Assembly (NCBI GenBank): GCA_013426785.1
Contig: JACDZI010000019.1
Coordinates: 1 to 47,464, forward strand
Length of the DNA: 47,464 bases
Direction: 5' to 3'
From: Rhodocyclaceae bacterium
GTDB taxonomy: Bacteria > Pseudomonadota > Gammaproteobacteria > Burkholderiales > Rhodocyclaceae
The translations under genes and the position numbers were made by a program. Shown piece after piece: positions 6,373 through 47,464 of this stretch (position 1 is its first letter; each line of letters opens with the position of its first letter). The notes under the pieces are model-generated. The model made no database searches, was not told where the DNA came from, and saw only the letters and a program-made list of their open reading frames with translations.

Positions 6373-7557
6373 TTGAGTCCGGCCACCATCCTCTGGCTGA
6401 TCGCCGGCTGCCTGATGTTGCAGCCGCTCTCCACCGACCTTTACCTCGCTTCGCTGCCCCACCTCGCCACCGACTTCGGCGTCACGCCGGCCGCAGTGCA
6501 GCAGACGCTGTCGCTGTTCGTGATCGGCTTCGGTGTCGCCCAGTTGATCAGCGGGCCGCTGTCGGATCGTTTCGGTCGCCGACCGGTGGTGCTGTGGGGG
6601 TTGGGCATCTACATCGCCGCCAGTCTGGCCTGTGCGCTGGCGCCCAACCTGGACCTACTGATCGCCGCGCGCTTCGTCCAAGCGGTCGGCTGCTGCACGG
6701 CCGCAGTGGTCGCCCGTGCGCTGATCCGCGATGTCTATGCGCCGGCCGAGGGCGCGAAGATGCTGGCCAAGGCGAGTTCGCTGTTGTCGCTCGCCCCCAT
6801 CTTCGGCCCGGTGCTGGGCGGTTATCTGCAAGTCTGGTTCGGTTGGCGGGCTGCCTTCTTCTTCCACACTTTTTTCTGCGGCGTTCTGCTGCTCTCCGCC
6901 GGTCGTTTTCTGGTGGAAACCAACCTGCAGCCAAATCTTGCTGCCATGCGCCCGCGCGGATTGATCGGGGTCTATCGCCGTATCGCCAGCGCCGACTTTT
7001 TCTGGGCCTTCGCCCTGCCCGGCGCATTGTCCTATGCCGCCATCTTCAGCTTCATCTCCGGCTCCTCCTTCCTGCTGATTGATGTACTGGGCGTGCCAAC
7101 CGACCTCTACGGTTACTGCTTCGGCTTCGGCGTTTCGGGTTACCTGCTCGGCACGCTGGTCTGTCGCCGCCTGCTGACGCGCCTCGGCCTGGCCCGTTCG
7201 GTGATGGTCGGAGCATCGCTCTCCCTCTTTTCCGGCCTGCTGTTCCTTGTGCTAGTATCGGCCGGCATTGCCCACTGGACGGTCGTCGTCGGCTGCCTGT
7301 TCCTGACCATGGGCGCCCACGGCATCAATTTCCCCTGCGCGCAGTCGGGGGCCATCGCACCCTTCCCGCGTGAAGCCGGCGCCGCGGCCGGGCTGCTCGG
7401 TTTCTTCACCATGGTGGTGGCACTCGTCACCGGCACCTGGGTCGGCATGAGCCACAACGGCACGCTGCTGCCGCTTGCCGCCACCTCGGCCATGATCGGC
7501 CTGTTGCTGTTCGGCAGCGCTCTGGTCTTCCGCCGCCTGCGCGCTGCGGTCGCCTGA
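6373..7557 (+). CDS. Bcr/CflA-type MFS drug exporter
   Basis: A 394-residue inner-membrane transporter with about 12 hydrophobic segments. The first-helix motif PLSTDLYLASLP and the loop SGPLSDRFGRRPV, MFS motif A between helices 2 and 3, identify the Bcr/CflA subfamily, which exports drugs by proton antiport. The start is a TTG at 6373 only 4 nt behind smpB, with AGGAG directly touching it, so the exact start is uncertain. The next ATG would cut into helix 1. Residues 203-209 (RIASADF) are encoded by a copy of the dispersed core repeat at 6979-7000. The substrate is unknown. Confidence 0.88.
   Translation: MSPATILWLIAGCLMLQPLSTDLYLASLPHLATDFGVTPAAVQQTLSLFVIGFGVAQLISGPLSDRFGRRPVVLWGLGIYIAASLACALAPNLDLLIAARFVQAVGCCTAAVVARALIRDVYAPAEGAKMLAKASSLLSLAPIFGPVLGGYLQVWFGWRAAFFFHTFFCGVLLLSAGRFLVETNLQPNLAAMRPRGLIGVYRRIASADFFWAFALPGALSYAAIFSFISGSSFLLIDVLGVPTDLYGYCFGFGVSGYLLGTLVCRRLLTRLGLARSVMVGASLSLFSGLLFLVLVSAGIAHWTVVVGCLFLTMGAHGINFPCAQSGAIAPFPREAGAAAGLLGFFTMVVALVTGTWVGMSHNGTLLPLAATSAMIGLLLFGSALVFRRLRAAVA
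6979..7000 (+). repeat. Dispersed core repeat inside the MFS gene
   Basis: This copy of the GCCAGCGCCGACTTT core lies within the coding sequence and reads as RIASADF. It is one of two copies outside the CRISPR region. Confidence 0.5.
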
Positions 7558-7572
7558 TCCGGCGCCAACCGT

Positions 7573-8349
7573 CTACTTCAGGCGCTGGCGCCGCATCTCG
7601 AAGAGGCACACTGCCGCTGCCGCACCGACATTGAGCGATTCGCTGCCCGGCGCCAGGGGTATGGTCGTGCGGCGCGACGCCAACGTCAGGAGTTCCGGCG
7701 CAATGCCGGCCCCTTCGTTGCCGAACAGCCAGGCGGTGGGCTGGCTGAAATCCTTCTGGTAGAGCGACGCGCCGTTGTGCGCCACCGCTGCGACCGACAC
7801 GCCGCCATAGCCGCGCAGGAAAGCCACCAGGTCGGCCTGCTCGCGGATACGCAGGGCGAAATGCGCACCCTGCGCGGCGCGCAGCACGCGCGGCGTCCAT
7901 GCACCCGCACAACCCAGTCCCAGCAGGACATCGCTCACACCGACGGCAGCAGCGGTGCGCAGCAGCGTGCCGACATTGCCGGGGTCCTGGATGGCGTCGA
8001 GCAGCAGGCAATCGCTGGCGACCGGAAAAGTCGGCTCCGGCAGCACGGCGATGCGGGCGAGGATGCCCAACGGCGTGGCCAACCCGCTCAAGCTACCGAA
8101 CAAGGCATCCGGCAAGCGCCAGGTCTCCACCGGCGTGAGTCGCGCCAGCAGCGCTTGCACTTCGGGATGGACGAGAGCACCTTCGCTGACGGCAATCAGG
8201 TCGGGCAGCACACCGTGGTCGAGCGCTGCGGCCAGCAGGTGCGGGCCTTCGAGCACGGCACGATTTTCCGCGCGTTGGCGGCGCGCATCGCCGAGCAGCG
8301 CTTTGAGCGCCTTGAACTGCGGGTTGTCGCGGGAAGTGATGATCTTCAC
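7573..8349 (-). CDS. TrmH/SpoU-family RNA 2'-O-methyltransferase
   Basis: A 258-residue SPOUT enzyme that should transfer a methyl group from AdoMet to a ribose 2'-OH in rRNA or tRNA. The N-terminal substrate-binding part begins [17 protein letters not shown], and the catalytic trefoil-knot domain carries the three SpoU motifs: [27 protein letters not shown], and [17 protein letters not shown]. The start is a GTG at 8349 overlapping the rnhB stop as GTGA, which implies coupling; the frame is open far upstream, but there it is the shadow of rnhB. It is the last gene of the rpsB-lpxB operon. The exact RNA target cannot be named. Confidence 0.9.
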
Positions 8350-8912
8350 GCGAACAGATCCAGTTGCTCGCGCACCGGCGCGAAGCTGCGGCGATGTGCT
8401 GGACAAGGGCCGAGCGTACGCAAAGCCGCCAAATGGGCCGCCGTGCCGTAGCCTTTGTGGCGCACGAAGTCGTAGCCGGGATACAACACATCGAGTGCCG
8501 GCATGCCGGCGTCGCGGGTGGTCTTGGCGAGGATTGAGGCGGCGGAAATTTCGGCGACCGTCGCATCGCCGCCGACGATGGCGCGCGCCGGAATATCCAG
8601 CGCGGGACAACGATTGCCATCGATGAGGATTTCCTGCGGACGAAGCGACAAGCCGGCCACGGCGCGCTGCATGGCGAGCAGGGTCGCCTGAAAAATATTG
8701 ATCTCGTCGATCTCTTCCACCGACGCTGCGGCGATCGACCAGGCGATGGCCTTGAGACAAATTTCCGCTGCCAGCTGTTCGCGTCGGGCGGCACTGAGCT
8801 TCTTGGAGTCGGCCAGTCCGACGATCGGCTGCGCCGGGTCGAGGATCACCGCCGCCGCGACCACCGGGCCCGCGAGCGGCCCCCTGCCCGCTTCATCGAC
8901 ACCGCAAATCAT
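8346..8912 (-). CDS. rnhB: Ribonuclease HII
   Basis: RNase HII cuts RNA in RNA-DNA hybrids and removes single ribonucleotides from DNA. The 188 residues are slightly short but complete. The catalytic carboxylates start with Asp6-Glu7 in [12 protein letters not shown]. The family motifs [14 protein letters not shown] and [12 protein letters not shown] follow, and the C-terminal [14 protein letters not shown] loop recognises the junction. It overlaps lpxB by ATGA at the front and the methyltransferase gene by GTGA at the back, the usual lpxB-rnhB order of Proteobacteria. Confidence 0.97.
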
Positions 8913-35440: not shown

Positions 35441-35730
35441 CCACCTTCTTCGTCACTCGCCACCCCGGTGCCCTCGACTGGGCACGCGCCAAGGGCATCG
35501 CCTTCGACCGCCATGTCACTCACCTCGACCCGCAGGAAGTCGGCGCTGGCGATACGGTGATCGGGTCCTTGCCGGTGCATCTGGCGGCGGAGGTTTGCAT
35601 TCGCGACGCGCGCTATTTCAACCTGTCGCTCGACTTGCCGGCCCATCTGCGCGGCCGTGAACTCGATGCAGCGACACTCGAAACATGTGCCGCGCGGCTG
35701 GAGGAATTTGACGTGAGGAAGTGTCCATGA
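35437..35730 (+). CDS. csx16: Csx16 (VVA1548 family)
   Basis: A 97-residue protein of the Csx16 family, found only with type III systems. It starts TTFFVTRHPGALDWARAKGI and contains HVTHLDP, the GDTVIGSLPVHLAAEVC segment and ARYFNLSLDLPAHLRGREL. The family has been proposed to degrade cyclic oligoadenylates (ring nuclease), which would switch off the neighbouring CARF effector. It overlaps cas6 and the CARF nuclease gene by ATGA on both sides, so all three are coupled. Residues 34-41 (EVGAGDTV) match a dispersed repeat copy, although a GD here is also family-typical. Confidence 0.88.
   Translation: MTTFFVTRHPGALDWARAKGIAFDRHVTHLDPQEVGAGDTVIGSLPVHLAAEVCIRDARYFNLSLDLPAHLRGRELDAATLETCAARLEEFDVRKCP
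35536..35557 (-). repeat. Dispersed core repeat (variant) inside csx16
   Basis: A reverse-orientation copy with GATACGG for GAGACGG, translated as EVGAGDT. Confidence 0.45.
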
Positions 35731-36845: not shown

Positions 36846-36850
36846 CCCCC

Positions 36851-36896
36851 GGCAAGCTTGCCGCGCCGTCCCGCCAGCGCCGACTTTTTGCATAAT
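36851..36896 (+). repeat. Long dispersed element, copy 1
   Basis: It begins with the 12-bp palindrome GGCAAGCTTGCC, contains the core GCCAGCGCCGACTTTTT and ends GCATAAT. It lies 5 nt after can2 and places CATAAT 8 nt before the ATG of the next gene. There is no ribosome site, so it may supply a -10 for a leaderless transcript. Confidence 0.7.
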
Positions 36897-36904
36897 CCGG
36901 CCGC

Positions 36905-37194
36905 ATGACCCCGCCCACCGCCTATTCCCGCCGCATCCTGCTCGCCGTCACCGGCCTGTCGCCGCAGATCGTCACCGAGACGCTCTACGCGCTGGCCCGC
37001 GACGGCGGCTTCGTGCCCGGCGAAATCCACCTGCTCACCACCCAGGAGGGCGCGCGACTGGCGAAAGCCGCATTGCCGCATCTGGACAGTAACCAGTTCC
37101 ATGCGCTCCTTGCGGATTACACCCGTGTTGTCGGCCCCGACAGCATCGGTGCCTTCGACAGCAAGGTAAAGTTCTCCCGTACCCCGGCTCTGCC
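36905..37194 (+). pseudogene. Internally deleted copy of the NE0113-family CARF gene
   Basis: The first 72 codons match the intact gene at 42024 almost exactly (RRILLAVTGLSPQIVTETLY to LLADY), including most bases. After that the homology jumps: TRVVGPDSIGAFDS resembles AGVVGRDSEAF near residue 292 of the intact protein, and the bases 37117-37143 match 42893-42919 at most positions. Roughly 220 codons are therefore missing. The frame then runs through a CRISPR leader and half repeat into the IS element and stops at 37360, so no functional protein is expected. Confidence 0.85.
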
Positions 37195-37274
37195 TGAAGA
37201 CAAGTCCGCGATGACCGCCAACCTTCTGCCCCCCCGCAACCTTCTGTTTTTAATTTGTTTTATAGTATCCGACG
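37195..37274 (+). other. Second CRISPR leader (remnant locus)
   Basis: AGACAAGTCCGC and ATGACCGCC at 37197-37219 match 44739-44760 with one change. The 17 nt before the repeat (TTTTATAGTATCCGACG) resemble those before the main array. Spacing to the repeat is 55 nt here and 59 nt there. It therefore is a leader of the same family. Confidence 0.8.
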
Positions 37275-37303
37275 GTCAGCAAAATGCCCTGAAAACAAAG
37301 GGA
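37275..37303 (+). CRISPR. Left part (29 nt) of an interrupted CRISPR repeat
   Basis: It is identical to the first 29 nt of the main-array repeat, GTCAGC through CAAAGGGA. The last 8 nt (37296-37303, CAAAGGGA) are the target-site duplication of the inserted IS element. The remaining 7 nt, TTGAGAC, lie at 40587-40593. Confidence 0.95.
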
Positions 37304-37328
37304 GGGTATCCGGATTTCGTGATTGAAA
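37304..37328 (+). repeat. Left terminal inverted repeat of the ISL3 element
   Basis: 25 nt starting GGGTATCCGGATTTC; it pairs with 40554-40578 with one mismatch. Confidence 0.95.
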
Positions 37329-37364
37329 ACCAGCCTACCGACAATGCCGTCACAGCATAGCAAA

Positions 37365-37427
37365 ACCGGAAATTGTGATTGACATAACAGTGATGCACTG
37401 TTATTATGAAACCGGAACATGTGATTG
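37365..37427 (+). promoter_or_regulatory. Passenger operon promoter and operator
   Basis: TTGACA at 37379-37384, a 17-nt spacer, and TATTAT at 37402-37407 form a near-consensus sigma-70 promoter. The spacer is a perfect palindrome, AACAGTG-ATG-CACTGTT (37386-37402). Two direct repeats of ACCGGAA..TGTGATTG (37365-37381, 37411-37427) flank it. This layout suggests autoregulation by a passenger protein. Confidence 0.75.
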
Positions 37428-37470
37428 TTGTACTTTGTAGAACCTATCTGTACCAAGGGAGGGCTTGATG

Positions 37471-37908
37471 ATGGATCAGCGACAAGAGATGGCCAGTGAA
37501 ACACTAGGACGGGCTATCAGCGAAGTTGTTCAGAGCGGCCTGTATGGCGCAGCGGAAGCCACTCATGCACGCGCATTCATCAATGGCGAACCGACCAACT
37601 TCATGGTCGTAGTCTTTGCTCAGACGCCAGAGGCTGCTGCCGCCATCAAAGAACGCGCTCTGACGGCTACGCCGCACGAGCGCACTGCCATCGATACGGA
37701 ACATCGAGGTATGGCAGGATTGGCTGATATGCTGGCTCAACAACCCGGCGGAAAGCCCTTCGTCTTCGATAATGGGCCGAGCTACAATCAATTCGTCGTT
37801 GGCCCAAGCGGCAGCGGTATGTCACATGCAGCCGCTGCTGAGGTAGTCAAGTCCAATTGCAAGATGTCCACCAAACTTCGTATCGCGCCTTCTGGACAGG
37901 AGTTGTAG
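37471..37908 (+). CDS. Unrecognised passenger protein (145 aa)
   Basis: No family was recognised. It starts at ATG 37471, 8 nt behind AAGGGAGG; two earlier in-frame starts (37465 TTG, 37468 ATG) are possible. The sequence is soluble, with MASETLGRAISEVVQSGLYGAAEA near the start and a Gly/Ser-rich GPSGSGMSHAAAAE near the end. It is the first gene after the palindromic promoter and lies 3 nt before the next frame. Candidate roles are operator-binding regulator or antitoxin component, both guesses from position. Confidence 0.6.
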   Translation: MDQRQEMASETLGRAISEVVQSGLYGAAEATHARAFINGEPTNFMVVVFAQTPEAAAAIKERALTATPHERTAIDTEHRGMAGLADMLAQQPGGKPFVFDNGPSYNQFVVGPSGSGMSHAAAAEVVKSNCKMSTKLRIAPSGQEL

Positions 37909-37911
37909 ATC

Positions 37912-38172
37912 ATGGGATCTATTGCCATACCAACTCGCGGACTCGCCGAGTACATCGACGACCTGGCGCGTGAGCATAATGTCCGTTACATTCGGACACC
38001 CAATGACGCCTTGGCCGATGTCATCACCCGATTGGCCGACGACGACGTGGTAATGGACGACGTGGAACTGCTACTGCTGGCGCTGGAACGTGCCGGCGTC
38101 ATCGCCAGCACGGATGTTGTGCCGCTGCACGTAAATTACCTGCGCGAGAAGTTCAATGTTCGATCCGTTTAA
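37912..38172 (+). CDS. Small passenger protein preceding Fic, candidate antitoxin
   Basis: An 86-residue acidic protein (LADDDVVMDDVELLLLALERAG) with AGGAG upstream. It overlaps the Fic gene by 17 nt, the tight coupling expected of an antitoxin-toxin pair. The inhibitory (S/T)xxxE(G/N) motif of known Fic antitoxins was not found, so the role is inferred from gene order only. Confidence 0.6.
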   Translation: MGSIAIPTRGLAEYIDDLAREHNVRYIRTPNDALADVITRLADDDVVMDDVELLLLALERAGVIASTDVVPLHVNYLREKFNVRSV

Positions 38173-39121
38173 GGACTTTGAGACCTGCGGATATCTGCGC
38201 AACACCCTTCACGAGAAAGACGCGCGGATCATTAAGCGGGTTGAGCACGAGATGTTCACCCGTCACCTAGCCGAGGCAACGAACTACTTGGCCGGCTGTA
38301 AGGTCGTTTGCTATCGGGACTTTCTGGCCGTGCACCGGATGCTCTTCTCCGAATTCTATCCGTGGGCCGGCCAAGACCGGGCGACGACGGCCCCGAATAG
38401 CGCTGTGACGAAAAGCGGGATTGCGTTCTGTCATCCAATGGACTGCCGCCGAGCCGTGGAAGCCGGTCTGCGTCTTGCTCAGGACAAGGCAACCATGAAT
38501 GCCAAGTCGGGCGAAGTGATGGGGCTGTTCGCATACGGGCATCCATTCCTGGACGGAAACGGGCGCACCATGCTGCTGGCTCACATCGAGCTTGCACATC
38601 GAGCGGGATTCTCGATTGCCTGGGAGAGAACCAACAAGGCGGATTACCTGAACGCCTTGAGCAAAGAAATCATATCTCCCGGTCGAGGCATCCTTGATGC
38701 ATACCTCTTGCAGTTCAAGGGGCCGCGTATGGATCGCAAGGAATGGGGTATCGCGATCTTGGGGATGAAGGGCTTGGACGGCCTCGATGAGGATAACCGG
38801 GTCGACGGCGATCTTTCAGATCCTGCGGTAGCAGAGCGCTATCGACAGTTTGAAGAGCAGCGAGGCTATCAGTACACGCTCGCCGAACACGGCCCCCTGG
38901 CACAGGAGTGGAAGGCGGTGCCGGCCAACGGCAGGCAGAGCGGTACGGTTGAGGCGGTATCTGAGACTGAAGTCATCCAGCATGTCGGGCGAGATAAGTA
39001 CGTTGTGTGGGACCGCCAGCGGCTTTCTGGCGCTGACCTGGAGGTCGGCCAGCATGTGGAGATCAGCGCCGATGGCAGAATCCAGGAGCCACCTGAGCGG
39101 GATTCCGGCCTCACGATGTAG
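38156..39121 (+). CDS. Fic-domain protein with KfrB-like C-terminal domain
   Basis: A 321-residue protein. Residues 1-190 form a Fic domain, which normally transfers AMP from ATP to a target hydroxyl. The core motif HPFLDGNGRTML has the catalytic His and the GNGR anion loop but lacks the final Arg of HxFx(D/E)GNGRxxR (Leu instead), so activity or nucleotide choice may differ. The C-terminus (SGTVEAVSETEVIQHVGRDKYVVWDR) resembles the small KfrB-type domain seen on plasmid-borne Fic proteins. It ends 2 nt before the transposase gene. A toxin role is likely but unproven. Confidence 0.82.
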   Translation: MFDPFKDFETCGYLRNTLHEKDARIIKRVEHEMFTRHLAEATNYLAGCKVVCYRDFLAVHRMLFSEFYPWAGQDRATTAPNSAVTKSGIAFCHPMDCRRAVEAGLRLAQDKATMNAKSGEVMGLFAYGHPFLDGNGRTMLLAHIELAHRAGFSIAWERTNKADYLNALSKEIISPGRGILDAYLLQFKGPRMDRKEWGIAILGMKGLDGLDEDNRVDGDLSDPAVAERYRQFEEQRGYQYTLAEHGPLAQEWKAVPANGRQSGTVEAVSETEVIQHVGRDKYVVWDRQRLSGADLEVGQHVEISADGRIQEPPERDSGLTM

Positions 39122-39123
39122 CA

Positions 39124-40548
39124 ATGCCTGCGAACATCCTCAACCTGCCGGCCTACACCGTCACTGCGCTGCAAGAGAACGAGCACGACTACCACATTGA
39201 TGCAACGGTCAAGGCCATGCCGGTCTGTCCGCATTGTCGAGGTGGTGACCTGAGCGGCTTTGGCCGTCGTGAGCAGATGGTGCATGACCTGCCGTCCCAC
39301 GGGCGCCGGGTCGGTCTTTACGTTGATACCCGTCGCTTCAAGTGCAATCCGTGCAGCATCAACCAGGGCAAGACGGTGACGTTCTACGAGCCACTGCCGG
39401 ATGTTGATGAGCGCCGGGCCATGACCTCCCGATTGAGGGCATGGATCGGCAAACAGGCCATCAAGCGGACGTTCGCCAGCCTCGCCGAGGAGGTCGGCAT
39501 CGACGAGAAGTCAGTGCGCTCCGTCTTCCGGGACTACATCAATGAACTGGAAAAGACCATCCGCTTCGAGGTACCGCGCTGGATGGGCATCGATGAAATC
39601 TACCTGATCCGGCCGCGCTGCGTCATCGCCAACATCGCCAACAACACCATCGTGGACATGCTCCACAATCGGAACAAGGAAACGGTGGTGCGTTACCTGC
39701 ATCATCTGGAAGGAAAAGATCGCATCCAGTACGTGGCGATGGACATGTGGCAGCCTTATCGCGATGCCTGCCATGCCGTGATTCCGGACGCCAAGATCAT
39801 CATCGACAAGTTCCATGTCGTCAAGATGGCGAACGAGGCAATGGAGCGTGTCAGGAAGGACTTGCGCGAGCGCCTGACGCCCAAGCAGCGTCGTGGACTG
39901 ATGCACGACCGCTGGGTAATGCTCAAGCGCGAACGCGATCTGACCGATGAAGACAGCCTGCTGCTATCAGGATGGATCAGGAATTACCCCGAACTCGGCC
40001 TGGCCTACCGCCTCAAGGAGGACTTCTTCGGTATCTACGACGCGGAGTCACCCGATGAGGCCCAAGGCCGCTTCCTTCAATGGAAGAGCCAGATCACGCC
40101 AGACATCGAGCCGGCCTTCTTCGACCTGGTGCGCGCCTGGGGCAACTGGAATCCGTGGATTCTGGAGTATTTCAACCACCCGATCACCAATGCCTACACC
40201 GAGTCCCTGAATAACCTGATTCGGGTCATGAACCGGCTTGGACGAGGCTACAGCTTCGAGGCCCTACGCGCCAAGATTCTCTTTGCCGAAGGAGCGCACA
40301 AACGCACCAATAGCCGGCCGAAGTTCGAGCGGAAATCCAGAAAAGAAGCCTTGCAGGCGCTACTGAATGGCGAAGATATCGAGTCCGACTTATCGGAAGG
40401 GGCCATCGGATTGGCAGGGACGCGAAGCTTCAGCATGGGAAGAATGTCGCCGACGCACAAGCCATCAACACAACTACCAGAACCGCCAAAGAACTACGGC
40501 GTCGATATTTCAACACTAACTCGAATGCTGGAGAACGGCGAGTTGTAA
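39124..40548 (+). CDS. ISL3-family transposase
   Basis: A 474-residue transposase with an N-terminal zinc-binding segment (CPHCRGG, then FKCNPC), a helix-turn-helix region (FASLAEEVGIDEKSVRSVF), and a DDE catalytic core: Asp157 in MGIDEIYL, Asp207 in VAMDMWQPYRDA, and Glu360 in NAYTESLNNLIR. These fit ISL3. The gene ends 5 nt before the right inverted repeat. It appears intact, so the element may still move. Confidence 0.93.
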   Translation: MPANILNLPAYTVTALQENEHDYHIDATVKAMPVCPHCRGGDLSGFGRREQMVHDLPSHGRRVGLYVDTRRFKCNPCSINQGKTVTFYEPLPDVDERRAMTSRLRAWIGKQAIKRTFASLAEEVGIDEKSVRSVFRDYINELEKTIRFEVPRWMGIDEIYLIRPRCVIANIANNTIVDMLHNRNKETVVRYLHHLEGKDRIQYVAMDMWQPYRDACHAVIPDAKIIIDKFHVVKMANEAMERVRKDLRERLTPKQRRGLMHDRWVMLKRERDLTDEDSLLLSGWIRNYPELGLAYRLKEDFFGIYDAESPDEAQGRFLQWKSQITPDIEPAFFDLVRAWGNWNPWILEYFNHPITNAYTESLNNLIRVMNRLGRGYSFEALRAKILFAEGAHKRTNSRPKFERKSRKEALQALLNGEDIESDLSEGAIGLAGTRSFSMGRMSPTHKPSTQLPEPPKNYGVDISTLTRMLENGEL

Positions 40549-40553
40549 TGTCG

Positions 40554-40578
40554 TTTCAATCATGAAATCCGGATACCC
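40554..40578 (+). repeat. Right terminal inverted repeat of the ISL3 element
   Basis: 25 nt ending CCGGATACCC, the complement of the left end with one mismatch. Confidence 0.95.
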
Positions 40579-40593
40579 CAAAGGGATTGAGAC
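40579..40593 (+). CRISPR. Right part of the interrupted CRISPR repeat
   Basis: CAAAGGGA is the duplicated target site and TTGAGAC the repeat end. Joined to 37275-37303 it rebuilds the full repeat. No further repeat follows. Confidence 0.95.
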
Positions 40594-40737
40594 GTTTTCA
40601 ACAAAATCAACAACGATCTGACCTACAAGCTCGACAGCCTGGGCAAGGCGGCGCGCGGCCTGTCTGGCGAAACCTGGCTGCTCTCGGTTCGTCCGCCGAC
40701 GCCAACCCTGCTGGAACGTCTGCGCGGCGCAAGTTGA
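40591..40737 (+). pseudogene. 3' fragment of an unidentified gene behind the broken repeat
   Basis: From the last bases of the repeat an open frame without a start codon reads NKINNDLTYKLDSLGKAARG and then LSGETWLLSVRPPTPTLLERL before a stop. Codon use is like neighbouring genes. This looks like the C-terminus of a longer protein whose front was lost when it was joined to the CRISPR repeat. The first 35 nt might alternatively be a spacer. The family is not recognised. Confidence 0.45.
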
Positions 40738-40810: not shown

Positions 40811-41965
40811 ATGATCCCGCGCACCGCCGCCGCCCTGCTGAACGAAATTCGTACCGGCTATCCCGTCATCACCCTCACCGGCCCGCGCCAGTCCGGCAAG
40901 ACCACGCTGGCGCGCACTGCTTTTGGCGACAAACCCTACGTCTCGCTGGAAACGCCGGATGAGCGCGAATTCGCCGAGCTTGACCCGCGCGGCTTCCTGG
41001 CGCGTTTTCCGGATGGCGTCATCATCGACGAAGTGCAACACGTCCCCGCCCTGCTCTCGTGGCTACAGACGGACGTGGATGCCAGCGGCCAGATGGGGCG
41101 CTTCGTCCTCACCGGCTCGCAGAACTTCAGCCTGATGGCGAACCTCAGCCAGAGCCTGGCCGGGCGCTCGGCCCTGGTGCAGTTGCTGCCCCTGTCGATT
41201 ACCGAACTGCGGCAAGCCGGCAAACTGCCGGACGAACTCGACGCCCTGCTGTTGCGCGGCGGCTACCCCGCGCTCTACGCCCGCGCCGTCCAGCCGGCGC
41301 GCTGGTATGCCGACTACACCCAGACCTATCTCGAACGCGACGTGCGCCAGATCACCCAGGTGCAGGATCTCGGCAGCTTCCAGCGCTTTTTGCGCCTGGC
41401 CGCCGGGCGCACCGGACAACTGCTCAATCTCGCCAGCCTGGCCCAGGATGCCGACATCGCCCAGAGCACGGCCCGCGCCTGGCTCTCCGTGCTCGAAGCC
41501 AGCTATGTCGTCCATCTCCTGCGGCCCCACCACCGCAACTGGGGCAAGCGCATCGTCAAGATGCCCAAACTCTACTTTCTCGACACCGGGCTGGCGGCGT
41601 CCCTGCTCGGCATCCAGACCTCCGCCCAACTGGCCCCCCATCCCCTGCGCGGTGCCTTGTTCGAGACCCTCATCGTCGGCGAATTCCTCAAGGCCCGCTG
41701 GCATGCCGGCTGGCCGTCCAACCTGTATTTCTGGCGCGACAACATCGGCCTCGAAATCGATCTGCTGCGCGAAGAACCCGATGGACTCTACCCGGTGGAA
41801 ATCAAGTCCGGCGCCACCGTCACCGAAGACCAGTTCAAAGGCCTGCGCAAGTGGCTCGCTGTCGCCGGCCCCGAGGCCCGCCAAGCGCGCCTCGTCTGCG
41901 CTGCGCCGGAAAGTTACACACGCAGCGGCATCGACGTGCGCCGCTGGCAGGATGCCGCCGATTAA
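40811..41965 (+). CDS. AAA-type ATPase with DUF4143 domain
   Basis: A 384-residue ATP-binding protein of the AAA_14/DUF4143 type. Walker A is TGPRQSGKTTLA (about residues 23-34) and Walker B is GVIIDEVQHVP. The sensor segment is FVLTGSQNFSLM, and the C-terminal DUF4143 part includes IGLEIDLLREEPDGLYPVEIKSG, which resembles a PD-(D/E)xK-like fold (E-I-D, then E-I-K). The function is unknown. Such genes often sit in defence and mobile regions, and this one lies between the wrecked and intact CRISPR modules in the same direction. It may be a passenger rather than a CRISPR component. Confidence 0.85.
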   Translation: MIPRTAAALLNEIRTGYPVITLTGPRQSGKTTLARTAFGDKPYVSLETPDEREFAELDPRGFLARFPDGVIIDEVQHVPALLSWLQTDVDASGQMGRFVLTGSQNFSLMANLSQSLAGRSALVQLLPLSITELRQAGKLPDELDALLLRGGYPALYARAVQPARWYADYTQTYLERDVRQITQVQDLGSFQRFLRLAAGRTGQLLNLASLAQDADIAQSTARAWLSVLEASYVVHLLRPHHRNWGKRIVKMPKLYFLDTGLAASLLGIQTSAQLAPHPLRGALFETLIVGEFLKARWHAGWPSNLYFWRDNIGLEIDLLREEPDGLYPVEIKSGATVTEDQFKGLRKWLAVAGPEARQARLVCAAPESYTRSGIDVRRWQDAAD

Positions 41966-42023: not shown

Positions 42024-43124
42024 ATGAACACACCCCACGACTATCCGCGCCGCATCCTGCTCGCCGTCACCGGCCTGTCGCCGCAGATCGTCACCGAGAC
42101 GCTCTACGCGCTGGCCCGCGACGGCGGCTTCGTGCCCGGCGAAATCCACCTGCTCACCACCCTGGAGGGCGCGCGGCTGGCGAAAGCCGCGCTGCTGCAC
42201 CCCGATGGCGGCCAGTTCCACGCCCTGCTGGCCGACTACCCGCAGATCGGCCACCCCGCCTTTGACGAGCGCCACATCCACGTCATTGCCGACGCCGCGG
42301 GTGCTCCGCTCACCGACATCCGCACGCCACCAGAAAACGCCGCCGCCGCCGATGCCATCACCGCGCTGGTGGCCGAACTCACCCGCGACGAACAGGCCGC
42401 CCTGCATGTCTCGATTGCCGGCGGCAGGAAAACCATGGGCTTCTACCTCGGCTACGCCTTCTCGCTGTTCGCCCGGCCGCAGGATCGGCTCTCGCATGTG
42501 CTGGTCTCGCCGCCCTTCGAGAGCCACCCGGAATTCTTCTTCCCGCCCGCCACGCCGCGCCGCTTGGCGACCCGCGACGGGCGGCACATCGATACCGCCG
42601 AAGCCGTCGTCACCCTGGCGGAAATTCCCGTCGTGCGCCTGCGCCACGGCCTGCCGCAAGCGCTCCAGGCCGGCCGTGCCAGCTTCAACGAAACCGTCGC
42701 CGCGCTGCAATCCGCCTTCGCCCCGCCGCGCCTCGACATCGAGCTGGCAACCCGCCGCGTGCGTTGCGGCGAGCGCGCCGTCACGCTCAAACCGGCCCTC
42801 GTCGCCTGGCTGGCCTGTCACGCGCAGGCCGCGCTCGCTGGCCAGCCGTTGCGTCACTGGCGCGACATCGACAGCGCCGACTTCCTGCGCCCTTACGCCG
42901 GCGTCGTCGGCCGCGACAGCGAAGCCTTCGAAGCGGCGCAACGACGCCTCAAGGACGGCATGGAAAAGGAATTCTTCGAGCAGAACAACGCCAAGCTCGA
43001 CGCCGCGCTGAAAGCCGCCCTCGGCCCCGCCGCCGCGCCCTACCTGCTGGCGCGCGCCGGCAGGAAACCGCACACCCGGCGCGGGCTGGCGCTGCCGGCC
43101 GAGGCGATCACGCTCCTGCCCTGA
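42024..43124 (+). CDS. NE0113-family CARF protein (annotated elsewhere as Csm6-type)
   Basis: A 366-residue protein of the TIGR02584/Cas_NE0113 family. The N-terminal CARF part has RRILLAVTGLSPQIVTETLYAL, and a second ligand-side motif is HVSIAGGRKTMGFYLGYAF. The C-terminal part (from about 215) is helical. I see no convincing HEPN RNase motif; the only R-x6-H (RDEQAALH) lies just before a CARF strand. It may therefore bind and possibly cleave the cyclic messenger, or regulate, rather than act as an RNase. It follows a long dispersed element and precedes cas2. A deleted second copy lies at 36905. Confidence 0.88.
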   Translation: MNTPHDYPRRILLAVTGLSPQIVTETLYALARDGGFVPGEIHLLTTLEGARLAKAALLHPDGGQFHALLADYPQIGHPAFDERHIHVIADAAGAPLTDIRTPPENAAAADAITALVAELTRDEQAALHVSIAGGRKTMGFYLGYAFSLFARPQDRLSHVLVSPPFESHPEFFFPPATPRRLATRDGRHIDTAEAVVTLAEIPVVRLRHGLPQALQAGRASFNETVAALQSAFAPPRLDIELATRRVRCGERAVTLKPALVAWLACHAQAALAGQPLRHWRDIDSADFLRPYAGVVGRDSEAFEAAQRRLKDGMEKEFFEQNNAKLDAALKAALGPAAAPYLLARAGRKPHTRRGLALPAEAITLLP

Positions 43125-44710: not shown

Positions 44711-44819
44711 AGTCAACTCGCGCATTACCCTCGCCAAGAGACAAGTCCGCAATGACCGCCCGCTTTCGCTATCACGCCTCACAAGCCTCTGTAATGAAAT
44801 GGTTTTACGGTAGCTGACA
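44711..44819 (+). promoter_or_regulatory. CRISPR leader of the main array
   Basis: A non-coding 109-nt stretch between cas2 and the first repeat. It holds the AGACAAGTCCGC/ATGACCGCC block at 44739-44760 and a TTTTACGGTAGCTGACA end. Both are shared with the remnant leader at 37195, which marks them as functional leader parts. Confidence 0.8.
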
Positions 44820-47375
44820 GTCAGCAAAATGCCCTGAAAACAAAGGGATTGAGACTGTGTCGATTTGTTACGGATATGAATGACATTTTCGTCAGCAAAA
44901 TGCCCTGAAAACAAAGGGATTGAGACGATAATTTCCTGGTCGGTCTCCCACAATGGGGTTGGTCAGCAAAATGCCCTGAAAACAAAGGGATTGAGACCAA
45001 TCCACCTCCCGAATTGGCTTATTGTATTCCGTCAGCAAAATGCCCTGAAAACAAAGGGATTGAGACCCGAATTGGCTTATTGTATTCCCCGCTTGGTGAT
45101 TGTCAGCAAAATGCCCTGAAAACAAAGGGATTGAGACTTTTTCGCCAACCTCATTGCGGCCTCATGGCATAGTCAGCAAAATGCCCTGAAAACAAAGGGA
45201 TTGAGACAGTTTCTTGCAAGTTGTTCTCCTGTGTTCTCGTCAGCAAAATGCCCTGAAAACAAAGGGATTGAGACTCCGTGAGTAATACCGATCAACCGCC
45301 AGCGCTTCGTCAGCAAAATGCCCTGAAAACAAAGGGATTGAGACCTCACAATCAAGAGTGAATAAGATTTCGCCACTGGTCAGCAAAATGCCCTGAAAAC
45401 AAAGGGATTGAGACCGGTGCTAGTACCGTTTGCTGCCTGACAGTGCCTGTCAGCAAAATGCCCTGAAAACAAAGGGATTGAGACGACAGGTTGGCACGGG
45501 ACAGGTTGGCACCGGACTGTCAGCAAAATGCCCTGAAAACAAAGGGATTGAGACATAGCGAAATGGAAGGCTGCTTGATACCTAGAGGTCAGCAAAATGC
45601 CCTGAAAACAAAGGGATTGAGACATCATTGCAAACAAATCTTCAGATGCAATCTCCGCTTGTCAGCAAAATGCCCTGAAAACAAAGGGATTGAGACACCG
45701 ATTTCCAACCAGTACCAACAACTATTACGTCAGCAAAATGCCCTGAAAACAAAGGGATTGAGACCCAACCAACAAAAGCTCCTTCTTGTGGACATATTGT
45801 CAGCAAAATGCCCTGAAAACAAAGGGATTGAGACATCAATTCAGTGGGCAACTCCCACCCGATAATGGTCAGCAAAATGCCCTGAAAACAAAGGGATTGA
45901 GACGTTTGTCGTCAGTGACAACATGCAAGTCTTGCCGAGGTCAGCAAAATGCCCTGAAAACAAAGGGATTGAGACTTAATAAGCTCAACGGGTTGCCGCA
46001 GTTCCCGGTCAGCAAAATGCCCTGAAAACAAAGGGATTGAGACTTGCCGAATAACCCAAAAGGGCGGCGGCAAGCTTGTCAGCAAAATGCCCTGAAAACA
46101 AAGGGATTGAGACCCCGACAAATTGCCGCGCCTTTGCAGGAACATCGGGTCAGCAAAATGCCCTGAAAACAAAGGGATTGAGACGCTGGGGCTTGCCTAG
46201 CCTTGCGGCTGGGGCTTGTCAGCAAAATGCCCTGAAAACAAAGGGATTGAGACGTGCTCCCGGAATGGTAGTGCTCCACCAATTCCGTCAGCAAAATGCC
46301 CTGAAAACAAAGGGATTGAGACACCATGAGGGAAGGGTAAGCATAAAACCGATGTCAGTCAGCAAAATGCCCTGAAAACAAAGGGATTGAGACGGGTAGA
46401 TGTGGAAATATTCAGACATTGTTTTGTCAGCAAAATGCCCTGAAAACAAAGGGATTGAGACAAACCGATGTCAACCGTTTCGGCGTCTTTCAGAGGTCAG
46501 CAAAATGCCCTGAAAACAAAGGGATTGAGACTACCTTTATCCCTAAAGACCGACCAACCCGCTTGGTCAGCAAAATGCCCTGAAAACAAAGGGATTGAGA
46601 CAATGTGTTAAGGCTTTACCTTATGCGGCAAGCTTGTCAGCAAAATGCCCTGAAAACAAAGGGATTGAGACTTAATCACGGGTGGCAGGTTCGCCGGGAT
46701 GGTGAAGTCAGCAAAATGCCCTGAAAACAAAGGGATTGAGACGCAGCCTCGTCGGTGAAGCGGTTGCAGAGTAGCGTCAGCAAAATGCCCTGAAAACAAA
46801 GGGATTGAGACATTTTTCACTGCCAGGTTATCGGGTAATGCAATGTCAGCAAAATGCCCTGAAAACAAAGGGATTGAGACCATTCTGCGCGGCGCCTTCC
46901 TTTGCGCGCTGAATGTCAGCAAAATGCCCTGAAAACAAAGGGATTGAGACGCGATGTCCTTGACATTGGCTTTGCGTGCGATGCGGTCAGCAAAATGCCC
47001 TGAAAACAAAGGGATTGAGACTTCCATAATTTCGATGAATGCGGCAATCATGGCTGGTCAGCAAAATGCCCTGAAAACAAAGGGATTGAGACCCGGCCAA
47101 ATTGTTAAAGATCGGAAAGACTAGCGGTCAGCAAAATGCCCTGAAAACAAAGGGATTGAGACGTTGGCCAGCCGGCGAGCATCGTCCGGGGTCATAAGTC
47201 AGCAAAATGCCCTGAAAACAAAGGGATTGAGACGGTTGCCATTCTTATCAGTCTTTACGGACGGCAACGGTCAGCAAAATGCCCTGAAAACAAAGGGATT
47301 GAGACGAAAGTGAACCGCTAACATCCCGAAAATTTTAGAGTCAGCAAAATGCCCTGAAAACAAAGGGATTGAGAC
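44820..47375 (+). CRISPR. CRISPR array, 37 repeats and 36 spacers
   Basis: The 36-nt repeat starts GTCAGCAAAATG and ends AAAGGGATTGAGAC; all 37 copies I read are identical. Spacers are 31-37 nt, mostly 33-35. The repeat contains a short stem CCCT/AGGG around GAAAACAA. The last 8 nt, ATTGAGAC, match the 5' tag type of type III crRNAs (ATTGAAAC-like), so transcription is rightward from the leader at 44711. Several spacers overlap each other in sequence (see findings). Even the last repeat is perfect, so the array may be truncated rather than naturally ended. Small frames seen inside the array are repeat artefacts. Confidence 0.99.
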
Positions 47376-47464
47376 GCGATAATTCATCTGATGAGAGGTA
47401 ACGCGGCTGTCTGCGCATTCCACGGCACTTGGACAGTGATTCCAGCGGAAACTGGACAGGCATT
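47376..47464. other. Sequence after the last repeat, no gene seen
   Basis: 89 nt without a repeat. It contains TTGGACAGTGATTCC and CTGGACAGGCATT, two related TGGACAG units in direct order, which resemble the multiple short repeats at ends of some IS21-type elements. The window ends here, so this stays a suggestion. Confidence 0.25.

Follow-up and report, generated by a model that had tools for sequence, protein, structure and literature searches.

Whether an insertion sequence (IS) that sits inside a clustered regularly interspaced short palindromic repeats (CRISPR) repeat has broken an array, and whether such repeats are a target to which mobile elements return, are the questions raised by an ISL3-family element in a 47,464-nt stretch of DNA from a Rhodocyclaceae bacterium (GenBank assembly GCA_013426785.1, contig JACDZI010000019.1, positions 1 to 47,464; hereafter the window). 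In this study, we found that the insertion inside the CRISPR repeat is real, exact and well kept, ordinary in mechanism, and an unusually clean example. No working array was broken by the element, and the 37-repeat array of the window is intact. Very probably, an ordinary ISL3-family IS with passenger genes transposed into a solitary relic CRISPR repeat in decayed, dispensable DNA. The features of the locus are collected in Table 1.

The 36-nt array repeat of the window is GTCAGCAAAATGCCCTGAAAACAAAGGGATTGAGAC. Positions 37275-37303 joined to 40587-40593 reproduce it letter for letter, the repeat being split 29|7, and removal of 37304-40586 restores it, exactly as the initial annotation of the window had stated. 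The 8-bp duplication that had been reported on both sides, CAAAGGGA, corresponds to nt 22-29 of the CRISPR repeat, and both of its copies are perfect. The first and last 25 bp of the 3275-bp element lying between them are complementary at 24 of 25 positions (96%), which bears out the claimed terminal inverted repeats. At any one right end, the 8-bp duplication and, after it, the 7-nt tail of the repeat would be found by chance with a probability of 4^-15, or about 1e-9, when equal base frequencies are taken.

The genome to which the contig belongs comprises 3.24 Mb in 241 contigs. Nucleotides 1-29 of the repeat occur exactly at 38 places in it, every one on this contig. One copy of the element is present, seen as two perfect end matches forming a pair; a third end-like site, with 3 mismatches, lies on another contig, and two further transposases of the family are 71% and 37% identical. 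A repeat-driven misjoin in this metagenome contig might be suspected from the number of contigs and from the duplicated segments that the contig holds. Such an assembly artefact is exceedingly improbable, however, as misjoining does not generate an exact 8-bp duplication flanking an element on both sides, and the duplicated segments differ by 11-27% and would not be confused by an assembler.

The assignment to the ISL3 family is well founded. The 474-amino acid transposase matches Pfam DDE_Tnp_ISL3 (PF01610, 7.6e-60, profile positions 1-240 of 240) together with PF13542 and PF14690, and scores 273 bits with NCBIfam transpos_ISL3 (NF033550) against a cut-off of 180. Terminal inverted repeats in this family are typically about 15-40 bp long, a range that the window element fits, and the family generates an 8-bp target duplication with a preference for AT-rich sites. 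The window element has a duplication of this length, and its own 8-mer is half G+C. The closest copy, in the Gallionellaceae metagenome-assembled genome (MAG) UBA2239 (genome G428, locus L015), is also 3275 bp long and 96.5% identical, with 114 differences, and is flanked by another duplication, CAAATTTC. Because this near-identical copy has CAAATTTC instead, CAAAGGGA belongs to the target, ruling out the alternative that the 8-bp match is part of the element. By analogy with the family, the transposase would have made a staggered 8-bp cut at CAAAGGGA, and fill-in would have duplicated those bases.

The initial annotation took the insertion as a case of a mobile element breaking an array, and this part did not hold. 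The split repeat starts 7545 nt before the start of the first array repeat, with 4.2 kb between the element and the next repeat, and neither spacers nor further repeats were found alongside it; on its right side stands a stub of a Card1-like gene. On its left, 36848-37139 duplicates, at 86-89% identity, the sequence surrounding the start of cas_NE0113, the Csm6-type ring nuclease gene at 42024. The ring-nuclease fragment itself has 89% nucleotide identity to the full-gene region over 274 bp, starting upstream of the start codon, and its Pfam match is restricted to profile positions 1-38 of 208. The adjoining stretch, 37156-37303, matches over 148 nt, at 74%, a sequence of the closely related genome G300 that leads up to the first array repeat and enters it; the part equivalent to the end of a second cas2-like gene aligns only weakly, and this gene is named, without a family search, from weak first-cas2 matches (34-41% identity at its place in relatives) and an open reading frame (ORF). 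Directly after the repeat, 44 of the 47 codons of the Card1-like stub align with the tail of the G300 Card1-like protein at 77% amino acid identity.

The gene order in G300, which has the same repeat as the window, is cas6 - csx - Card1-like - NE0113 - cas2 - cas1 - cas2-like - array. Card1, NE0113, cas2 and cas1 also follow one another in this order in genome G107, whose Card1 is 53% identical to the window Card1 at 35721. The split repeat is bordered by a leader copy, to which a 5′ fragment of the ring-nuclease gene is fused, and by a Card1-like stub. It is therefore a relic of a duplicated and decayed CRISPR-Cas segment with two deletions, the element lying in the only repeat of that segment. 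The order in the segment was Card1-like - ring nuclease - cas2 - cas1 - cas2-like - leader - repeat; one deletion fused the ring-nuclease gene, within its 5′ part, to approximately the end of the second cas2-like gene, and the other fused the end of the repeat to the tail of the second Card1-like gene.

Does the ISL3 element choose CRISPR repeats? The initial annotation had proposed that repeats may be a recurring target and that the 8-bp targets of other copies be listed. We collected transposase copies by scanning genome contigs (71 loci) and by sampling 297 genomes of the family and 399 of the order. The resulting 99 alignment rows, the window included, gave 49 distinct right-end targets, after 13 duplicate flanks, 21 rows without a recognised right end, 5 rows too near a contig end and 11 partial rows were left out. 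Only the window's insertion lies in a repeat (1/49), and none of the 48 other distinct insertions with a definable right end does. The targets are AT-rich 8-mers with a mean GC content of 24% across the 49 insertions, and A or T is favoured at positions 2-7. The 8-bp duplication was seen with at most one mismatch in 17 of 47 distinct insertions, the remaining ones being without a found left end. Apart from the window's, one flank, that of L052, recurs once more within its locus; this match is a palindrome next to a run of A residues and is not among spaced repeats.

CRISPR repeats and terminators both form hairpins, and targeting of hairpin sides was considered as an explanation and rejected, as the folding of the flanks compared with composition-matched controls from the same locus showed no clear preference. 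The median fraction of controls that were at least as stable was 0.375 for right flanks (36 of 47 with enough controls) and 0.456 for left flanks (15); the window site folds weakly, with 0.96 and 0.865 of controls at least as stable. Of the total weight in the target model, 6.0% falls on the repeats, which make up 2.5% of the length; for leader and array together, the figures are 16% and 6%. Base composition thus makes arrays somewhat attractive, but the actual 8-mer is a poor target, so that composition is a weak factor at most. Taken together, the compared sequences do not show this element to seek repeats, and its usual targets are AT-rich 8-mers.

An array screen independent of the element ends covered 92 loci and then 18 more, including later-sampled copies; it is blind to solitary repeats with no array nearby. 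The 22 rows with unrecognised right ends were examined separately. The screen yielded one array case, missed by the end-based count: a Fic-carrying ISL3 relative in a CRISPR array of MAG DX2.bin19 (L035:335-2983; the same insertion as the genome G756 loci L186, L202 and L208). Few copies came from additional sampling of 32 genomes of the G756 family and 369 of the class, and none of them is in an array; L194, L195 and L196-L198, likewise not in an array, stand outside the 49. About 5 kb from another ISL3 copy, at L075:12112-12275, there is a 72-bp-spaced repeat in three copies, which may be a coding repeat.

The transposase and Fic protein of the L035 relative are 62% and 64% identical to those of the window, and the element is flanked on one side by a partial repeat and on the other by the final repeat, an irregular one, of an array whose repeats are of another type (GCATCACCCGGCCGGTTGGCCGGGTGCGGATTGAAAC). 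Its left inverted repeat is not recognisable, no duplication was found, and neither end is provably in a repeat. The sequence GATTGAAAC is common to the L035 CRISPR repeat and the inner end of the right inverted repeat of the element. The module of 86-amino acid ORF, Fic protein and ISL3 transposase thus stands in CRISPR DNA at two of the three independent places that the searches showed (the window, G428 = L015 and G756 = L035). From this, a preference of the element, or of the branch that carries Fic, for CRISPR repeats or arrays could be argued, the more so as the inner end of the inverted repeat, GATTGAAA, was seen directly to resemble the 3′ end of CRISPR repeats, a likeness that extends to the 3′ ends of many such repeats. 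Three places, one of them given, are nevertheless too few for a claim of preference. The absence of repeats among the 48 other targets, which fit plain AT-richness and show no hairpin preference, and the lack at L035 of a duplication or of an end provably in a repeat make such a preference highly improbable. A broader idea, which we consider very unlikely, is that of an ISL3 group with an exchangeable slot before the transposase gene for addiction or restriction modules (Fic, HepT/HEPN with nucleotidyltransferase, PstI-like restriction-modification), whose Fic branch accumulates in CRISPR loci; the IS would preserve itself, sheltering in immune memory and perhaps switching it off. For this element, then, the suggestion of a recurring target was not upheld, the L035 copy, with its undefined left end, being the one relative that the screen placed in an array.

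For mobile elements in general, the same suggestion is supported in a small way. We surveyed the stretches around all 47 cas1 places of a family search (46 of 395 genomes matched at the threshold), one array end and one continuation, a set of 48 stretches plus the window. An array was present in 34 of the 49 stretches, window included, with 785 repeats in total (the window's 38 included). In two related genomes, repeats are hit by unrelated elements. In G304 (L164, reverse strand 7284-8646), a 1286-bp DDE_Tnp_1 element, presumably ISAs1-like, with 19/20 inverted repeats follows a perfect repeat inside a long array, and its 8-bp duplication, ATTGAGAC, is the last 8 nt of the CRISPR repeat. This case resembles the window in having an 8-bp duplication within a repeat, but differs in its transposase family and in the long array around it. 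In G317 (L176:14091-15607), an IS110-family element of 1476 bp splits an array repeat of a type similar to that of the window; unlike the window element, it has a 4-nt overlap, CTGA, and a DEDD transposase and lies inside an array.

A second element in G304, with integrase-core (rve) domains, stands between two full repeats, and the script found neither ends nor a duplication for it. In G300 (L135, reverse strand 419-970), the terminal repeat of the array is cut after 27 nt, where a Y1 (IS200-like) transposase gene adjoins it. Decay of the end may account for this rather than an insertion, the insertion reading being weakened because the last repeats in L148, L150 and L170 are likewise cut with no recognised element beside them. 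No transposase was recognised in the gaps of L140, L141, L144 and L174, whose ORFs were read by eye without a family search; the L174 gap starts, one spacer in, with a truncated repeat of about 20 nt. With the window's included, four two-sided insertions were recognised, three in repeats and one in a spacer; this share cannot be told apart from the 51% of array length taken up by repeats.

Several observations weigh against the view that an ordinary IS transposed into a relic. The target CAAAGGGA is atypical. When a model is built from the 46 other targets, no more than 5 of them have a score equal to or below that of CAAAGGGA, which is equalled or exceeded at 27% of window positions. The element with the same Fic module in the G756 array (L035) also has to be set on this side. 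In addition, the solitary repeat is identical to the array consensus at 36 of 36 positions despite the divergence of its surroundings, where the proximal leader shares 56 of 77 positions (73%) with that of the main array and the ring-nuclease fragment is 89% identical to its full-length counterpart. The repeat would therefore have been recently homogenised, or constrained until shortly before the insertion.

The perfect repeat allows another explanation, namely that solitary leader and repeat formed a working second acquisition site or mini-locus and that an inactivating insertion was selected, as a self-limiting or anti-defence event. The relic leader is about as close to the main leader as the latter is to the G300 leader (58/81), with no accelerated decay visible, and inactivation of CRISPR-Cas by IS elements is known from the available text of PMC10359306. 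Yet the genes on both sides of the solitary repeat are truncated, and with an intact array and cas1 and cas2 genes 4 to 7 kb downstream, inactivation of the relic would change little, so that we regard this explanation as unlikely. For the reading that we prefer, insertion into a relic, the order of events is also relevant. A deletion caused by the element would be expected to start at the element end, yet both copies of the duplication and the complete repeat tail remain, suggesting that decay preceded the insertion. As the repeat is the remnant of a duplicated and deleted CRISPR-Cas segment, the site is decayed, dispensable DNA, and the insertion may have been neutral.

Table 1. Features of the split-repeat locus and the main CRISPR array (window coordinates)
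Feature	Position	Strand	Basis or remark
5′ fragment of cas_NE0113 (Csm6-type ring nuclease) gene	36905..37138	+	nucleotide identity to gene at 42024
Relic copy ahead of the solitary repeat, reaching approximately from the second cas2-like gene's end to the leader, leader included	37156..37274	+	G300 match
First 29 nt of solitary CRISPR repeat	37275..37303	+	equals nt 1-29 of array repeat
Left copy of 8-bp target duplication CAAAGGGA	37296..37303	+	
ISL3-family element with passenger genes, 3275 bp	37304..40578	+	inverted repeats, duplication, L015 copy
Left terminal inverted repeat	37304..37328	+	24/25 complementary
Passenger ORF, 147 amino acids	37465..37908	+	no family found
Passenger ORF, 86 amino acids, possible Fic antitoxin partner	37912..38172	+	overlaps fic start
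Passenger Fic-family protein with C-terminal KfrB domain, 321 amino acids	38156..39121	+	Pfam
ISL3-family transposase, 474 amino acids	39124..40548	+	Pfam, NCBIfam
Right terminal inverted repeat	40554..40578	-	
Right copy of 8-bp target duplication	40579..40586	+	
Last 7 nt of solitary repeat (TTGAGAC)	40587..40593	+	
C-terminal stub (47 codons) of second Card1-like CARF nuclease gene	40594..40737	+	G300 tail identity
Full cas_NE0113 gene	42024..43124	+	NCBIfam TIGR02584, 2.9e-80
Leader of main array	44739..44819	+	
Main CRISPR array, 37 identical intact repeats, 36 spacers	44820..47375	+	

Three passenger genes precede the transposase gene of the window element. The 147-amino acid ORF is kept at 97% amino acid identity in the G428 copy. 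The Fic protein matches Pfam Fic (2.3e-11) and KfrB (7.6e-9) and contains the catalytic motif HxFx[DE]GNGR (HPFLDGNGR, residue 129); its best solved relative is VbhT (1.5e-11). The 86-amino acid ORF gave no Pfam or PDB match worth naming. Relatives of it also stand directly before fic at L205, L206 and L207 (genomes G728, G636 and G548), where no related ISL3 transposase was found in the 14-kb stretches examined. Gene order and overlap fit an antitoxin-toxin pair, a function that we would assign on sequence grounds. The Fic inhibition motif of toxin-antitoxin modules of the VbhA/VbhT type, [ST]xxxE[GN], is located either in a partner or in Fic itself, and it has no match in the 86-amino acid ORF, the 147-amino acid ORF or the Fic protein.

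This place in the element is occupied by other genes in its relatives. An ORF of at least 70 amino acids ends near the transposase start in 56 of the 60 copies with a near-complete transposase start; in copies without a defined left end, the ORF is assigned to the element by its position. For 54 of the 56, a Pfam scan was made (L092, the same place as L038, and L041, where the ORF was read 4776 bases long, were left out). The matches, in which one protein can count in several families, comprise HepT-like (7), Fic (6), HEPN (4), DUF6036 nucleotidyltransferase (3), HepT-like_2 (2), BsuBI/PstI restriction enzyme (2), AbiEii (2), NotI (1), Zeta toxin (1) and PIN_10 (1), with cargo of other kinds in DUF2807 (3), DUF5710 (2) and TetR (1). 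The PADLOC matches of the cargo include restriction enzymes, SoFic, one Cas2-like protein and several candidate systems. Toxin-antitoxin or restriction genes of several unrelated families were thus seen just before the transposase gene among copies L015-L067. The Cas2-like protein, at L031:5493-5768, lies directly before the ISL3 transposase (Pfam CRISPR_Cas2, 0.0003; the only PADLOC Cas2 match among the 54, 1.6e-14), and we assume that it could be a VapD-like relative. The exchangeable toxin or restriction cargo of this ISL3 group is a better lead than the insertion into the repeat.

Some further observations concern the surroundings of the element. An AAA_14/DUF4143 ATPase gene lies at 40811-41965, between the Card1-like stub and the ring-nuclease gene, and has no match in the G300 contig. 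Compared at E <=0.01 with the element and the loci, the 36 spacers gave no match to the element. What passed this threshold were pieces of the same array, an overlap of spacer 3 with spacer 4, and spacer 30, which matched L124, an unrelated stretch, over 24 nt with 2 mismatches (E 0.005). Spacers 3 and 4 (window 44998-45101) have 22-23 nt in common, consistent with overlapping protospacers. The contig ends about 90 nt past the last repeat, and this terminal piece (47376-47464) resembles what we take to be the end of an IS21-type element.

Precedents exist for the insertion of mobile elements into CRISPR loci, and the mechanism is ordinary. The available part of PMC10359306 reports 163 natural cases of cas genes with an IS inserted, and it cites CRISPR loci hit by IS elements and prophages integrated into direct repeats; that part makes no mention of ISL3 or type III. 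As in those cases, the window has an IS with a target duplication inside a CRISPR-Cas locus, but here the target is a solitary relic repeat, so that no loss of immunity is implied. Passenger genes in ISL3 elements are likewise known. ISPpu12a, in the available text of PMC4133298, is described as resembling a non-composite transposon with tnpR and two additional ORFs, one of them a putative lipoprotein gene; ISPpu12 and ISPpu12a share with the window element an ISL3 transposase and extra genes inside the element, whereas the window cargo consists of the 147-amino acid ORF and the 86-amino acid ORF/Fic-KfrB pair. According to the portion of PMC7157771 available, Tn3-family transposons have toxin-antitoxin passengers, HEPN-MNT among them, close to their transposition genes, and this portion has no match for ISL3 or Fic; here, Fic, HepT/HEPN or restriction genes stand just before the transposase gene of ISL3 elements. 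Among titles and the beginnings of abstracts, we found no description of an ISL3 element in a CRISPR repeat or of an ISL3 toxin cargo slot, which is no claim of absence from print.

In summary, the split repeat shows how such finds are to be read: the target is a relic, the array beside it is complete, and the other copies of the element show no taste for repeats. Given that repeats are hit by unrelated elements too, one can measure at scale how often mobile elements insert in repeats as against spacers. A separate, testable question is posed by the toxin and restriction cargo of the ISL3 group, namely how insertion sequences avoid loss.

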